A DNA stretch of 5,358 nucleotides from an uncultured Lachnospira sp. GTDB lineage: Bacteria > Bacillota > Clostridia > Lachnospirales > Lachnospiraceae. This document shows, piece by piece, positions 1 to 5,358 of this stretch. Made by a program: the position numbers and the translations under genes. The notes under the pieces were generated by a model. The model saw nothing but the letters and a program-made list of their open reading frames with translations, was not told where the DNA came from and searched no databases. Position 1 is the first letter of the stretch. Each line of letters opens with the position of its first letter. The stretch covers positions 1 through 5,358 of the forward strand of contig CAAHEK010000269.1 of assembly GCA_900772425.1 (NCBI GenBank), in the 5' to 3' direction.

Positions 1-1562
1 ACGATGTTATCCTTCTGCCAAGATGGTGCAATAAGAATAGATTTGACATCTGAATCCTTCTTGTCCATCTTCTGATAATCTTCACGCATTGAATCCAACA
101 GGCAGTAACCCCATTCAATTATCTTTTTCTTAGGAAGATTATAAACCTTCTCTGTCTCTTCTATCTCTGCCTTGTGATGCTTACCTGTACAGAATACTGT
201 GTCAAAATGGTCCATTGAACCCTTACGCATAGTCATATTCAAACTATCCATACAGTGTGGTATGTAAACATATTCAATATCTTTTCTTATATAACTTCTC
301 TTTATATGATAATTTTCAAGGTCAGGCATTGTCATTACAACAACGTCCGCATCCATCTTCATCATAAGAGTTATAAGCTTCTTTTCGCCTATATAATAAG
401 CTTTGATATGGTCATTTTCTTTTGCCATATCAAACACGGTATCCTCAGGATCACTTGTTATATAATGGATAACTATATTTGTATTTTTAAGTATGTACTC
501 AATTATACCTGCATAATACTTATAAAATCCTTTATTCTCTGAGTAGAAAACAAGGTGTTTATTAACAATTGAGAAAAATCTCTTATAGTCCTGTCTTTCC
601 TTCTTAGCATATGGATCTTTTGTGAAAAGCTTTGTCTTTCCTGAACTTCCACCGATTCCCTCCAAAGCTGCAAGCTCCTGCTTGCTTGCCTCAAGGTCTT
701 CATAATCAACATACTTCTTAGGATTAATAGCCCAGTTAAGAAGGTATAACTGTAAAATTGCAAATAAATTACTTGCTATCCAGTAAAGTGCAACACCGGC
801 AGGAACGAACCAGCCAAGATAAAGAGAAAGTCCAACTGATAAAATCATCATTCCGTATTTATTAAGCTTAGACTGCTCTGCCTGTAATACATTGCTGGCA
901 TTCTGTGCAACGCATAATAACCATGCTGAAAATCCTGCTGCAATAGGAACTATTATATCTATTCCTCCAACCTCAGATGGAACCCAGCTTAAATTAATGC
1001 CAAGGAAGCTCATGTTAAGTCCTTTTATCGACTCCAGAGTTGATGCTATATCAACATTTGCAAACTGTGGCTGTAATGCAAGGAACTGACTTTCATATGT
1101 TCCATTTTTAATATTCTCAACTACAGCAAGCTGAATCGAAGATGATTCAGGATTAGCACCTGTAAGTGAAACAATCAGGTTATTAAAAGCATTTATAACA
1201 TCTGTTGGAAGATGTAAAAGGTAATCCAGCGGATGATAAATAACTGCAACAAGACCAAGTAATAAAATTATCTGAACTGCAAGTGGTATAAGAGATGCCA
1301 ATGGATTATACTTCTCTTTCTTGAAAAGCTTCGACTGCTCATCAGCTACCGCATCTTTATCTCCAAAATGTCTTGTTTTAATCCTGTTAATCTCAGGCTG
1401 CATCTTAACCATTTTGATGGAATTCTTCTGCACCCATATCGATATAGGCAGCAAAACTATTTTACTTATTAATGTGAATAATATTATTGCTATTCCATAA
1501 TTACTTATTATCTTATAGCAAAATGCCATTACATATCCCAACGCACTTGATAAAATATTCAT
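1..1562 (-). CDS. YidC/Oxa1 insertase domain fused to CDP-glycerol glycerophosphotransferase-like domain (3' end off window)
   Basis: One open frame of 520 complete codons with no stop; the C-terminus lies beyond the left edge. Residues 1-280 are a YidC/Oxa1 insertase. TM1 is about 22-44, with NYGIAIILFTLISK and then LLP. A cytoplasmic charged loop carries MQPEINRIK (54-62). TM2 is about 87-108, TM3 about 201-220, and TM4-5 about 236-277 with the family signature FVPAGVALYWIASN (252-265). A charged linker covers about 281-329. From about 330 the sequence resembles TagB/TagF-type glycerophosphotransferases: IPHCMDS with a likely catalytic His436, then DTVFCTGKHH, WGYCLLDS and ILIAPSWQ (509-516). 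Known for the families: YidC inserts membrane proteins; TagB/TagF add glycerol phosphate from CDP-glycerol at the inner membrane face. Inference: an envelope-polymer transferase tethered by, or cooperating with, an insertase module. The ATG at 1562 is preceded by AAAGGG at a 7-nt gap. Lys34 sits where many YidC proteins have the groove Arg. No lipobox is seen. The domain calls are firm; the biological role is not. Confidence 0.9.
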   Translation of the reverse strand, partial: MNILSSALGYVMAFCYKIISNYGIAIILFTLISKIVLLPISIWVQKNSIKMVKMQPEINRIKTRHFGDKDAVADEQSKLFKKEKYNPLASLIPLAVQIILLLGLVAVIYHPLDYLLHLPTDVINAFNNLIVSLTGANPESSSIQLAVVENIKNGTYESQFLALQPQFANVDIASTLESIKGLNMSFLGINLSWVPSEVGGIDIIVPIAAGFSAWLLCVAQNASNVLQAEQSKLNKYGMMILSVGLSLYLGWFVPAGVALYWIASNLFAILQLYLLNWAINPKKYVDYEDLEASKQELAALEGIGGSSGKTKLFTKDPYAKKERQDYKRFFSIVNKHLVFYSENKGFYKYYAGIIEYILKNTNIVIHYITSDPEDTVFDMAKENDHIKAYYIGEKKLITLMMKMDADVVVMTMPDLENYHIKRSYIRKDIEYVYIPHCMDSLNMTMRKGSMDHFDTVFCTGKHHKAEIEETEKVYNLPKKKIIEWGYCLLDSMREDYQKMDKKDSDVKSILIAPSWQKDNI

Positions 1563-1569
1563 AAGTCAT

Positions 1570-1575
1570 CCCTTT
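1570..1575 (-). promoter_or_regulatory. Ribosome binding site of the YidC-transferase fusion gene
   Basis: The minus strand reads AAAGGG, then seven bases, then ATG at 1562. This decides between two ATGs. The other, at 1569, is out of frame with the YidC domain, has no room for this site and soon meets a stop. Confidence 0.7.
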
Positions 1576-1584
1576 CTCTTTAAT

Positions 1585-1695: not shown

Positions 1696-1728
1696 GTTTT
1701 TTTACATTTTCCTTTATACAAACTTTAC
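1691..1728. terminator. 9-bp perfect inverted repeat overlapping the glycosyltransferase stop codon; weak terminator candidate
   Basis: GTAAAGTTT (1691-1699) and AAACTTTAC (1720-1728) are perfect reverse complements around a 20-bp loop. The TAA stop of the upstream gene (1727-1725) lies inside one arm. On the minus strand the stem is followed by only a mixed AT tail (CTATATATTTG). On the plus strand it is followed by six Ts (1729-1734), but no plus-strand gene needs ending here. The stem is AT-rich and the loop long, so stability is doubtful. Confidence 0.25.
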
Positions 1729-3563
1729 TTTTTTAATGTAAGTTCATAATAATAAATTCCGCCCTGGTATGTTGATGCTTCCTTCCTCTCTGAAATATCG
1801 TAGAAATACTGTAATGCATCAAGCGCTTTATCATAGTTAATATCTTCCATAAAATATGTGCAGATAACAAACACTCCTCTATCCTTTAACTGTGTTTCCA
1901 ATATATCCACAATATCCTTATTATAGAATGTATTTACGATATAATAATCGCTCATTTGCTCGGTATCTTCATTACTGTAAAAAACTCTTTTCTGTTTCCT
2001 GCTATCCCAGTTAAGATAATACAATGGGACATTTCCACTAATAAATACTCCACCATCATCATAAAGAATAATGTCCGTGTCATCAGGTGAATACCCTGTT
2101 TCTTTTAACATTTTATCCATAGCTTCATCATAGCAATGATACTGTGTATTATGAATAAGAGATTCTCCATAAACCATAGATGAGTATATATCAGTCATAA
2201 GCAAAGTGTCCATTGTCACGCCGTCAACATTTACAAATACCGCTTTCGACAAAGGATCTATAGTAACAAAGCACTCTGCAAATATAAGTAAAGTCCACAA
2301 TCCCAATGCAGCCTTAGATACCATGCCTGTTCTGACGTTTTCTTTCTTTCTGGCATGGTAAATATATATTGCCTGTTCCATTACATATATTGCAATAATA
2401 TATATAAGTATATCACTTACTATGTTATATCTTACACAGGTCTGTGTTATATATAAATACGAAAACAGCGAATGTGCAGTAAGCGCAGCTGCAATCACAA
2501 CAATTCCATATTTGACATAGCCTTTGTTGTTTTCTTTTAATCTTTTATCTTTATTATGTTTAATTTTTAAATATTTTGAATTTGCAATTATATAAATAGT
2601 TCCAAGTAAAATAACAGCAAGAACTATCCAGTTAAAATTGAGTATGAACTGCTGCTTGAATTTCATGGTTATATATTCTGTATTAAAACCAAAGCAGTCC
2701 ATTCCATTGCTGTTCCACCTGAACATTCCGCCTGTTTTTTCGCCTTCAGAACCATTCCAGTTACTTCCATATGCCCTGAAATAATAAAGCTGAACAAAAG
2801 CAGCAAATAATGTTGTATATAACTTGGAGCTTTTAAATATTTTCTTAATTCCCTGACTCTTATATTCAAAAAGAAGTCTTATAATTTCCCCAACCGCAAT
2901 GCCCGCTACTATTACAAGTCCTGTCTCCTTGGTCTGAAAACAGAATAATGATAATATTCCTGCAAGCACAGCTTTATCATAAACATAACAGCATATTATC
3001 ATAACTACAAACATAGCAAGTGGATAATCCAGATTAATATGTGTTGTAAATGCATAGACAAGAGGAGTTATTGATATGAGTAATGTATAGACGGCACACT
3101 TTGTTTTAGTTGTTGTTCTTGTTATTTTCTGAAGTATTTTATACACGCACCACATTGCGATAAGTGTTAATATTAAACTTACCAATGTGACACCAACTAT
3201 CAGCCTTGGAAAAATCATTTCACCAATAAGATAAACCATCGTAAATAAAGAAGCCGAATGATCGCACAAAGCATAGTATTTTATCATGTCAGCTATGCTT
3301 GTGTAATTAAATCCGTCGAGCGCAAGCCCAAGCCTGTAATAATATTCCCCGGCATCCCACCTTTGTATAAGTGTCATAAATGGAATTCTTGTTATGACTA
3401 TAATAATCATAACTATAAGCATTGCCTTGTTATCTTTAAAAAATGCTGCTATTTTTTCAACTGTAAGATTCTTAAAGCAATCCACAATCACAATAGCAAG
3501 CAGATAAAGATAAACAGGTAAAACAGCATAAGTCCAAATGCAAACGCTGATGAATAATCCCAT
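1725..3563 (-). CDS. GT-C fold membrane glycosyltransferase (ArnT/PMT, GT39-like), probably the main part of a split gene
   Basis: A 612-residue polytopic membrane protein from the first ATG. Family features: a first outer-face loop RWDAGEYYYRL (68-78) with a candidate catalytic Asp70; INLDYPLAMF (176-185), matching the second acidic motif region of PMT_2-type enzymes; and FQTKETG (209-215), like their conserved Lys motif. Hydrophobic segments lie near 7-29, 47-65, 104-146, 157-232, 306-326, 352-373, 382-400 and 418-434. A soluble tail of about 175 residues follows. Such enzymes move a sugar from a polyprenyl-phosphate donor to an acceptor outside the membrane; the acceptor here is unknown. 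The start is doubtful: no Shine-Dalgarno precedes the ATG at 3563, and an in-frame TAA lies at 3575-3573. The first 76 bases overlap the ORF at 3488-3823 in another frame. Taken alone, this ORF would place Asp70 on the cytoplasmic side. It is therefore probably the -1-frame continuation of the upstream ORF. Confidence 0.8.
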   Translation of the reverse strand: MGLFISVCIWTYAVLPVYLYLLAIVIVDCFKNLTVEKIAAFFKDNKAMLIVMIIIVITRIPFMTLIQRWDAGEYYYRLGLALDGFNYTSIADMIKYYALCDHSASLFTMVYLIGEMIFPRLIVGVTLVSLILTLIAMWCVYKILQKITRTTTKTKCAVYTLLISITPLVYAFTTHINLDYPLAMFVVMIICCYVYDKAVLAGILSLFCFQTKETGLVIVAGIAVGEIIRLLFEYKSQGIKKIFKSSKLYTTLFAAFVQLYYFRAYGSNWNGSEGEKTGGMFRWNSNGMDCFGFNTEYITMKFKQQFILNFNWIVLAVILLGTIYIIANSKYLKIKHNKDKRLKENNKGYVKYGIVVIAAALTAHSLFSYLYITQTCVRYNIVSDILIYIIAIYVMEQAIYIYHARKKENVRTGMVSKAALGLWTLLIFAECFVTIDPLSKAVFVNVDGVTMDTLLMTDIYSSMVYGESLIHNTQYHCYDEAMDKMLKETGYSPDDTDIILYDDGGVFISGNVPLYYLNWDSRKQKRVFYSNEDTEQMSDYYIVNTFYNKDIVDILETQLKDRGVFVICTYFMEDINYDKALDALQYFYDISERKEASTYQGGIYYYELTLKK

Positions 3564-3823
3564 TTGGATGCATTAAATAAAGCAGAAACACAGTCATATA
3601 AAAATACCGGAAGTAATCCTGCCGTTATCTGTCTGAATATGCTTTTGAATTTTTCAAAGCCAACCGCAATAACAAGTCCCGATGCACAACACAATACAAC
3701 ATACAGTATAACCATTGTGCCATCATGATTCGCTGCTATTTTATTCCCAAAAATCAGCAAAGCTGATAAAAGGCTTAAACAAAAAACAACTAATTTCCAA
3801 AGGTTTGCCATTAATTTTTTCAT
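3488..3823 (-). CDS. Small membrane ORF, probable N-terminal part of the split GT-C glycosyltransferase
   Basis: A 111-residue frame starting at the ATG at 3823, preceded by GGAGAA 4 nt upstream. An in-frame ATG at 3844 has no ribosome binding site and is less likely. Hydrophobic segments lie at about 11-27, 36-55, 66-83 and 93-111. Charges fit a cytoplasmic N-terminus (MKKLMANLWK) and a cytoplasmic loop FEKFKSIFRQ. The ORF ends at TGA 3490-3488, inside the fourth hydrophobic stretch and 76 bases past the start of the downstream ORF. I recognise no stand-alone family. Joined by a -1 shift to the next ORF, it would give a protein of roughly 700 residues with five membrane segments before the catalytic loop. 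That arrangement satisfies the positive-inside rule. Alternatives are a true small overlapping membrane protein with translational coupling, or a sequencing error. Confidence 0.6.
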   Translation of the reverse strand: MKKLMANLWKLVVFCLSLLSALLIFGNKIAANHDGTMVILYVVLCCASGLVIAVGFEKFKSIFRQITAGLLPVFLYDCVSALFNASKWDYSSAFAFGLMLFYLFIFICLLL

Positions 3824-3827
3824 TCGG

Positions 3828-3833
3828 TTCTCC
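3828..3833 (-). promoter_or_regulatory. Ribosome binding site for the split glycosyltransferase gene
   Basis: The minus strand reads GGAGAA, then four bases (CCGA), then ATG at 3823. It is the only convincing ribosome binding site for either of the two overlapping ORFs. It supports 3823 as the start of the whole coding region. Confidence 0.65.
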
Positions 3834-3865
3834 AAATCATGCATACAAAATGTATATTATATATT

Positions 3866-3963: not shown

Positions 3964-5358
3964 TTAAAATTTAAAGAAACTAAGATTACCGTTCTCACTA
4001 ACAAGTGGCTTGCTTCCTGTGTAAGTTTCCAATTCTTCCTCAAGTTTTTCTATTTCACCTTCTGTGTAAGCTCTTCTATCTACATAAATTCCGGCAAAAT
4101 CCTGCTCTTTTAGGTATTCTACCATCCTTCTTGTGCTCATCTGAGACACATTCTTATTCCATTTATCTCCGTCTCTTCCTTTAATGGTACCATAACTCCA
4201 GCGGAGTGTATCAGAATGAACATATCCGGTATACAGATGATAATCCCACATATCATTAACAGGTCCTGCCTCAGGATACTGATGATATGGCAACTGATAA
4301 ATCATGCTGCCCGCTTCGACTTCATTTTCTATTTCTGAAACAAAATCAGCATCACTTGTATACTCAACCTCAATTACTGCATAATCAGGTGTTGCAAACT
4401 GTGGAAATCCCTCCCATATGCTGAATACACATGCAAGTCCCACTACGGCTCCTGTTCCGTATACAAAAATGTTTCTCTTGTTTTTATTTTCTTTATACTT
4501 TTTCGCAAAATACTCCAGCAAATGGCTCATAAGCAATGCAACTGTAAGTATGCAGGCATACGCGATAAATATTGATATTCTGCAATATCCTCTTAACATC
4601 GGACTTATAAAGTATGCAAACATTGCTCCAAGTCCGCCAACCGTACCTAGAAGCACCATTGCTATATTAAGCTCGGCAAGAAATCCAATTCTTTTATTAA
4701 TGGCGCTGTCTTTCTTCATAAAAAGATAAACAAGCAGAATAATAAAACCTATCATACCTATTATTCCCAGATATGACATTGAATTTTCTGTTACAAGAAA
4801 TGCATTTTCATTATATATGTCTATATATTTATCATAAATACCATGTCCGTTAACAGGCATAAAAAGCTGTGCTATCTTCATACCATACAGTTCTGACTGT
4901 TCAAAGCCGGCTCTGTCTATGGCTTCTGCATTAACACCGTTCATAAATGTGTATATTTTGCCCGGAATTATGCTTATAACAACAAAAACACAAACAAATA
5001 CTGCAGCGATAACGCCTCTTAAGCCTTGCTTTATTTTACCTGTTTTAGCAAGCTTTGATACAGCTGTCACCATAAATATAAAGCATGTAAAGAATGGATA
5101 ATATGCAATTCCGTTATTAGCAATTAAAAATGTGAATAACAACACTACATAATTAATCTTTCTTTTAAAGAAATCTTTATCCGGAACTAACACATCGTCT
5201 CTTTCATATATCCATATACAGATAAGTATAGACAATGGAACAAAATAACTCTCTGCAAGAACAATATGCCCTACATTTCTGTATAGTATATAAGGAGACA
5301 GTGCAAATACCGCAGAAGTAAAGCTGTTTACCCAGCAATTAACCTTCAGGTTGCGCAT
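3964..5358 (-). CDS. Polytopic membrane protein, probably GT-C-like glycosyltransferase-related (5' end off window)
   Basis: The 464 visible residues end at TAA 3966-3964. The reading frame reaches the right edge. The Met there is only the last codon in view, with no space for a ribosome binding site, so the real N-terminus is probably further upstream. Hydrophobic segments lie near 12-27, 32-51, 69-100, 113-133, 194-214, 227-249, 258-279 and 296-314. A soluble, presumably extracytoplasmic tail follows, about 320-464. Recognisable features are SPYILYRNVGHIVLAESYF followed by a Pro-initiated helix (21-41), RGYCRISIFI (256-265), QLPYHQYPE (355-363) and LRWSYGTIKGR (385-395). From memory, these resemble large uncharacterised membrane proteins related to GT-C glycosyltransferases. 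I cannot name a family with certainty, and YfhO-like proteins are an alternative. The catalytic first loop expected in GT-C enzymes would lie off the window. The same-strand glycosyltransferase downstream suggests a shared surface-polymer role. Confidence 0.7.
   Translation of the reverse strand: MRNLKVNCWVNSFTSAVFALSPYILYRNVGHIVLAESYFVPLSILICIWIYERDDVLVPDKDFFKRKINYVVLLFTFLIANNGIAYYPFFTCFIFMVTAVSKLAKTGKIKQGLRGVIAAVFVCVFVVISIIPGKIYTFMNGVNAEAIDRAGFEQSELYGMKIAQLFMPVNGHGIYDKYIDIYNENAFLVTENSMSYLGIIGMIGFIILLVYLFMKKDSAINKRIGFLAELNIAMVLLGTVGGLGAMFAYFISPMLRGYCRISIFIAYACILTVALLMSHLLEYFAKKYKENKNKRNIFVYGTGAVVGLACVFSIWEGFPQFATPDYAVIEVEYTSDADFVSEIENEVEAGSMIYQLPYHQYPEAGPVNDMWDYHLYTGYVHSDTLRWSYGTIKGRDGDKWNKNVSQMSTRRMVEYLKEQDFAGIYVDRRAYTEGEIEKLEEELETYTGSKPLVSENGNLSFFKF

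Follow-up and report, generated by a model that had tools for sequence, protein, structure and literature searches.

Enzymes that activate phosphocholine or 2-aminoethylphosphonate (AEP) with CTP are encoded next to cell-surface genes in the Lic- and Pnt-type tailoring systems of bacteria, and Rice et al. (2019, PMC6697681) call the steps that follow CTP activation in the tailoring with AEP and related headgroups unknown and mention LicD-like transferases. The terms YidC, insertase, glycerophosphotransferase, TagF, and sulfatase were searched for in the main text of that paper and gave no hit. The loci described below resemble these neighborhoods in the proximity of CTP activation to cell-surface genes but, instead of the LicD-like transferases named there (PMC6697681), carry a single chain that joins a YidC/Oxa1-type domain to a TagF-type transferase. 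Further described relatives are the YidC/Oxa1 insertases such as Bacillus halodurans YidC2 or Bacillus subtilis SpoIIIJ, which end in a short tail where the fusion has a large cytosolic enzyme domain, the TagF/TarL teichoic-acid polymerases (PF04464), and the LtaS/PbgA/EptA group with an alkaline-phosphatase fold. Among titles and the beginnings of abstracts, mainly of open-access literature, we found no description of a YidC-TagF fusion, and as far as we searched the domain pair is recorded in public precomputed annotation apparently without discussion. The enzyme half is hidden because the source names of these proteins, where given, read solely "membrane protein insertase YidC" or "YidC/Oxa1 family membrane protein insertase". 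The fusion and the genes named below as its set make a widespread candidate, in bacteria of gut and rumen, for the late steps of headgroup transfer, and they offer a natural test of whether the YidC/Oxa1 fold can work in lipid transport instead of inserting proteins.

The window (the whole stretch of DNA that was analyzed, 5,358 nucleotides from an uncultured Lachnospira sp.) contains this fusion gene at positions 3..1562 (-). Its ATG start codon at 1560-1562 (-) follows a purine-rich, ribosome-binding-like stretch that can be read off the sequence at 1570..1581 (-), and from there the frame is open for 520 codons down to base 3, where the 3' end is cut by the window edge. Across positions 1-1562 this frame has no stop, compared to 27, 36, 27, 39, and 56 stops in the other five, and the arithmetic of an earlier note on this DNA (1562 = 520 x 3 + 2) was correct. 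The full-length relative P0001 (701 aa) is identical to the window ORF at 516 of 520 residues. Among the 120 homologues listed (of 6941), 117 carry both PF02096 and PF04464, and only PF02096 was found in P0097 (395 aa), P0111 (377 aa), and P0118 (697 aa). We also sampled loci by scanning one genome per species, which gave 180 relatives and 80 loci that were kept; in all 80, including two where a contig end cuts the fusion (L063 and L080), a single open frame covers the query at least to residue 498. The titles of these records include Lachnospiraceae, Solobacterium/Erysipelotrichaceae, Oscillospiraceae, Clostridia, Bacilli, and Candidatus Saccharibacteria, and many of the titles name gut or rumen sites. 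A chance or artefactual joining of two genes by assembly error or frameshift thus has a practically negligible probability because the fused frame recurs in 80/80 kept loci, the complete genome GAM79 included, and both domains in 117/120 listed homologues; we discarded a sequencing or frame artefact on these grounds and regard the one-chain fusion of YidC and a TagF-type transferase as genuine.

The YidC half is readily recognized. PF02096 matches residues 22-276 of the window ORF (735..1499 (-)) with 113.3 bits at a cut-off of 35, TIGR03592 matches P0001 with 107.6 bits (cut-off 84.3), and the five-helix fold with a cytosolic hairpin that marks YidC/Oxa1 proteins is present. In the predicted structure, the YidC half matches B. 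halodurans YidC and the transferase half matches TagF, and the linker between them after TM5 (residues 279-325, 588..728 (-)) has a pLDDT below 50 solely at residues 305-311. When aligned to E. coli YidC, Lys34 of the fusion (1461..1463 (-)) falls on the position of the groove arginine, R366. In an alignment of 195 sequences, which leaves out L063, L080, and the stand-alone YidC L082, all 194 fusions that have a letter at this position read Lys. We had considered this residue as the mark of an altered insertase and rejected the idea: the same column in 19 stand-alone YidCs of relatives reads Asn (6), Lys (6), Arg (4), or Tyr (3), with Asn in the stand-alone YidC of GAM79 itself, and the position is not diagnostic because Lys also occurs in 6/19 of the stand-alone proteins.

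Unlike ordinary YidC/Oxa1 insertases, the fusion is commonly one of two YidCs in its cell. A separate yidC next to rnpA and rpmH, whose presence the earlier note had raised as a point to check, was indeed found: 11 of the 12 relatives' fusion genomes tested encode an additional stand-alone YidC of 279-454 aa, and in GAM79 a separate 431-aa YidC (L084) lies in an rpmH-rnpA-yidD-yidC-jag run (gene names assigned by eye from the translations). The GAM79 fusion gene lies outside this operon, ca. 1.8 Mb away by coordinate.

Of the TagF-like GT-B domain, only the N-terminal half lies inside the window (residues 333-520, 3..566 (-)). PF04464 has no match at E<=0.1 on this truncated piece alone because ca. 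181 C-terminal residues fall outside the window, while on full-length P0001 it matches residues 338-672 with 44.4 bits (cut-off 22.1). The reading in the earlier note of a complete YidC core joined to a glycerophosphotransferase-type domain is therefore supported, with both domains matched on P0001; of the Pfam matches that the note had expected, the window ORF itself shows PF02096, and a search confined to the window could seem to speak against the transferase because that half is only partly inside it. The fusion family has the GT-B fold together with the pair of active-site histidines typical of TagF (H444 and H584); the equivalent residues, H436 (255..257 (-), mapped via the stand-alone TagF L085) and H544, are invariant in 60/60 fusions, and the W-H-G of TagF reads P-H-C in P0001 and L001. 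A first Foldseek search ranked other GT-B enzymes above TarL with TagF absent among the best 50 matches, and a second look matched the transferase domain to the soluble GT-B fold of TagF and TarL. When the complete fusion was compared to PDB sequences, YidC/OXA1L chains and two chance-level chains were returned but no TagF. Compared to TagF/TarL, the fusion scores only 44 bits to the family, associates with the membrane via YidC, and has neighbors that make amine headgroup donors.

To characterize these neighbors, we grouped the genes flanking 76 of the 80 loci into clusters whose representatives were named with Pfam and NCBIfam, and then counted HMM matches at 79 loci (all but L028, which a coverage filter removed) and, as controls, in 36 regions of 20 kb taken from 12 of these genomes; the HMMs were trained on the same loci, so these counts test specificity, not discovery. 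A YIDP transmembrane segment is encoded at 77/79 fusion loci and in 0/36 controls, and the two loci without it are both contigs that end within the fusion gene. Of the 83 stretches matched, 66 lie directly downstream of the fusion on the same strand, overlapping it or at most 90 nt away, and 13 positions are invariant in 20 sequences of the segment. An LtaS-like membrane enzyme is encoded at 62/79 loci (17 have none) and in 0/36 controls. Like members of the LtaS/PbgA/EptA group, this partner has long N-terminal helices (five in the model), an outer domain, and a conserved set of Asp, Thr, and Asp-His; LtaS is its first match among PDB sequences, closely followed by carrageenan sulfatases. YIDP is the constant partner and the LtaS-like enzyme a frequent one. 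The coupling of the insertase domain to one pathway, in the sense of the dedicated substrate proposed in the earlier note, is supported. The same note had suggested adjoining polytopic glycosyltransferases as the partner, but the three ORFs upstream of the fusion in the window have no relative in the collected loci (tblastn, E 1e-4), and we dropped these glycosyltransferase-like genes as candidates for a constant partner.

A third group of neighbors comprises enzymes that would supply activated headgroups. LicC/PntC-like nucleotidyltransferases are encoded at 47/79 fusion loci vs. 2/36 controls, TagD-like cytidylyltransferases at 20/79 vs. 0/36, and one or the other at 56/79 vs. 2/36 (Fisher p 1e-11). 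The 23/79 loci without either include some short contigs, and GAM79 is counted among them because its set lies outside the fetched flank, at a distance of 11-14 kb. CobD-like aminotransferases are present at 26/79 loci vs. 1/36 controls, and BCCT (choline-type) transporters at 4/79 vs. 1/36, which is not significant. The fusion might also be seen as an ordinary CDP-glycerol-dependent teichoic-acid polymerase or primase with a coincidental YidC anchor, given that PF04464 scores over its cut-off, that the fold is that of TagF/TarL, and that TagD-like domains, some fused to an oxidoreductase, occur at 20/79 loci. We consider this very unlikely in view of the prevalence of LicC/PntC-like (47/79) and CobD-like (26/79) genes and of phosphonate genes in a subset of loci; GAM79, for example, has no PF04464 match at E<=0.001 other than the fusion, yet encodes, at 11-14 kb from it, a LicC-like enzyme together with an AEP transaminase and a PEP mutase. 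Because of these gene neighbors, the transferase domain is predicted to use CDP- or CMP-activated amine headgroups instead of CDP-glycerol.

Several of these neighbors are themselves fused. A chain of ca. 604 aa that combines a LicC/PntC-like nucleotidyltransferase with a CobD-like phospho-amino-acid decarboxylase/aminotransferase (L005:2131-3939, L026, L137:9335-11179, and others) may be able to make CDP-ethanolamine or CDP-aminopropanol on its own; among solved structures, its CobD-like half is closest to a threonine-phosphate-decarboxylase-like enzyme (6oux). Such fusions are common where PEP mutase is absent, and the PEP mutase set and the nucleotidyltransferase-CobD fusions may be alternative routes to aminoalkyl headgroups activated with CMP or CDP. 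Elsewhere, a PF01467 cytidylyltransferase fused to a PF01408 NAD-binding oxidoreductase is encoded downstream of the YidC-TagF gene (L038:13622-14932, L050:13203-14522, L074:15625-16926); the L038 gene adjoins a class-V aminotransferase, and the product is perhaps another activated aminoalcohol.

A link to phosphonates can be seen in GAM79, where the genes follow in the order fusion, YIDP gene, three LtaS-like genes, unrelated genes, LicC-like gene, AEP transaminase (PhnW), and PEP mutase. Among solved structures, its LicC-like enzyme is closest to 1jyk, a CTP:phosphocholine cytidylyltransferase (E 2.7e-28), and closer to it than to PntC (6pd1), the Treponema denticola enzyme of Rice et al. 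(PMC6697681). The three tandem LtaS-like genes (L087:13516-18611 (-)) include two of 566 aa each with near-identical N-termini, which suggests a recent duplication. Among 101 genomes drawn around GAM79, 16 carry the fusion (two as split pieces), eight others carry only the stand-alone transferase described below, and 26 encode PEP mutase, which is present in 13/16 genomes with the fusion vs. 13/85 without it (p 4.6e-7). After removal of five genomes already in the locus scan, the ratio is 9/11 vs. 13/85 (p 1.6e-5), and in 8 of the 13 genomes that have both the fusion and PEP mutase, the two genes are on one contig, 1.6-13.7 kb apart. In a first set of 79 fusion genomes (49 + 30; four of them, G001, G002, G045, and G064, also belong to the set around GAM79), PEP mutase scored over the cut-off in only 16 (10/49 + 6/30), nine times on the contig of the fusion at 0.8-31 kb and seven times on another contig, and G054 has a match below the cut-off ca. 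1.2 kb from its second fusion copy. Six proteins encoded at most eight genes from a fusion show the PEP-mutase motif EDKxxxxxNS, and within the fetched loci PEP mutase was found six times vs. never in controls (p 0.17, not significant). Phosphonate is therefore not the general substrate, and we rejected it as the sole headgroup, 63/79 fusion genomes being without PEP mutase over the cut-off. The headgroup probably differs by strain, with phosphonate where PEP mutase is present and phosphocholine or aminoalcohol phosphates where LicC-, CobD-, or TagD-like genes are found.

The fusion belongs to a set of four modules (YidC, TagF-like transferase, YIDP segment, and LtaS-like membrane enzyme) that are permuted among chains. 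This becomes apparent from 11 regions around stand-alone relatives of its transferase (26-29% identity), all of which encode a TagF-like protein that itself starts with a YIDPGTG-type transmembrane segment; LicC/PntC-type nucleotidyltransferases are present in 7/11. A YidC-LtaS-like frame (851-943 aa, YidC first) is the direct neighbor of the stand-alone gene in nine of these regions and next but one in a tenth (L147). All ten frames score over the cut-off for PF02096 and match PF00884 at E<=0.01 (four of them over the cut-off), and in a hydropathy scan each of them has a further 4-6 hydrophobic helices outside its YidC part. In the eleventh region (L146, G054:C51), the YIDP-TagF-like gene stands beside two ordinary LtaS-like genes and no YidC-LtaS-like fusion; the same genome carries YidC-TagF fusions at other sites. 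The N-terminal YIDP segment recurs in 119 among 120 listed database relatives of one YIDP-TagF-like protein. YidC-LtaS-like proteins are likewise common; for one of them 120 relatives were listed, every one with PF02096.

Three arrangements can thus be distinguished: YidC-TagF with separate YIDP and LtaS-like genes, as in GAM79; YidC-TagF with the YIDP segment fused to the LtaS-like enzyme, as in Solobacterium/Erysipelotrichaceae-type loci and L003; and YIDP-TagF with YidC-LtaS-like. The LtaS-like partner, unlike the described LtaS/PbgA/EptA proteins, is therefore fused to YidC or to a YIDP segment in two of the three. The window shows the YidC-TagF chain but none of the partner genes, and its nearest relative among the loci is GAM79. 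By motif, no natural chain among the 79 fusion frames and the 240 proteins P0001-P0240 combines YidC with YIDP. The YIDP segments of the YidC-TagF and YIDP-TagF architectures, compared as profiles, gave an hhalign probability of 27% (P 0.0007), and we speak of alike rather than homologous segments because this match is weak. Alignment A3 covers 10/11 sequences, with L143 left out.

A constant single-helix neighbor would suit a YidC domain that acts as a dedicated insertase for its operon partners (the YIDP protein and perhaps the LtaS-like enzyme) and assembles them all at one spot, with the TagF-like domain still on the cytosolic face. Beyond the presence of YIDP at 77/79 loci and its usual position directly downstream, the short YIDP protein looks by eye like a YidC client, with its N-terminus out, one helix, and a cationic tail. 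It has a leader in some lineages only, i.e., in many Lachnospiraceae loci but not in Saccharibacteria and some Bacilli loci, and a signal peptidase I gene lies near 25/79 fusion loci vs. 1/36 controls (e.g., L001:17503-18096 (-)). By eye, the leader-bearing form resembles M13 procoat and the leaderless form Pf3, two classical YidC clients. On the other hand, Solobacterium/Erysipelotrichaceae-type loci have YIDP on the LtaS-like enzyme, a like segment sits on the transferase in the YIDP-TagF architecture, and these fusions and its very strong conservation make it look less like a passenger than like a working subunit. Furthermore, the separate YidC found in 11/12 genomes should suffice to insert the YIDP protein. 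We therefore regard dedicated insertion as doubtful, though a serious rival.

The earlier note had also suggested that the insertase core is a membrane anchor for the TagF-like enzyme. Such a passive role would fit the soluble GT-B fold of the transferase, the single YIDP helix that could serve as its anchor in the YIDP-TagF architecture, and a groove position that is not special, with Lys also in 6/19 stand-alone YidCs and Asn in 16/17 YidC-LtaS-like chains. It is difficult to reconcile, however, with YidC being placed on an LtaS-like enzyme whose chain already brings 4-6 hydrophobic helices (10/10), and an active role in lipid passage or partner insertion is likelier because an enzyme with its own helices needs no anchor. 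A mere anchor would also hardly account for the phylogeny of the YidC domains. In a tree of 66 of them, including 30 of the 60 fusion domains, the two fusion types form separate clades (support 100/99 and 100/100) that join at different points among stand-alone YidCs, though with long branches for whose joins the tool itself gives a warning; YidC has apparently been recruited twice, separately. The anchor part of the suggestion thus appears quite unlikely to us.

The reading that we prefer, to which we would give somewhat less than an even chance, makes YidC-TagF the cytosolic and trans-membrane part of a machine for decorating the cell surface with amine headgroups, in which the product would pass via the YidC fold to the LtaS-like enzyme. 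The cytosolic TagF-fold domain would take an amine headgroup (AEP, phosphocholine, or similar) from its CTP-activated donor and load it onto an acceptor held in the membrane, presumably a lipid or lipid-linked glycan. The YidC fold might then pass the loaded product across the bilayer like a flippase, and the LtaS-like enzyme outside would make the final transfer. We considered such a connecting role since something must join the two sides of the membrane and YidC is fused now to the transferase, now to the LtaS-like enzyme. E. coli YidC is reported to scramble lipids when reconstituted in vitro, and the tested Oxa1-family members do so in simulations (PMC10491306). Lipid scrambling by a generic YidC does not establish purposeful scrambling by the YidC of the fusion, and we rank lipid passage, itself tentative, above dedicated insertion. 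It is a bolder and to our mind unlikely extension that YidC was recruited at least twice as a dedicated flippase for headgroup lipids, whose YIDP-capped groove would carry the loaded lipid from the transferase to the LtaS-like enzyme and so supply the late step that is missing from the tailoring with phosphonate and phosphocholine in gut Firmicutes and Saccharibacteria and perhaps in Treponema.

The three upstream ORFs of the window all encode membrane proteins. Those at 3488-3844 (-) and 1725-3563 (-) overlap in different frames and may be two genes or the pieces of a single broken one; of the two, the longer is similar to GT-C mannosyltransferases, with PMT_2 scoring below its cut-off. Another membrane-protein ORF at 3964-5358 (-), which runs to the window edge, has no Pfam or NCBIfam match over the cut-off and no relative among the collected loci. 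With regard to distribution, twelve records of 0.7-0.9 Mb titled Candidatus Saccharibacteria carry the fusion (L050, L051, L055-L058, L060, L061, L064, L066, L069, and L073), and in three Saccharibacteria the fusion shares a contig with a divergent stand-alone YidC (G011:C4, G056:C2, and G057:C16). This shared contig argues against mis-binning and suggests that the fusion has been transferred between phyla. The YIDP-TagF-like chain is also found in two proteins labeled Treponema (P0331 and P0341), the genus of T. denticola from which the characterized PntC was obtained.
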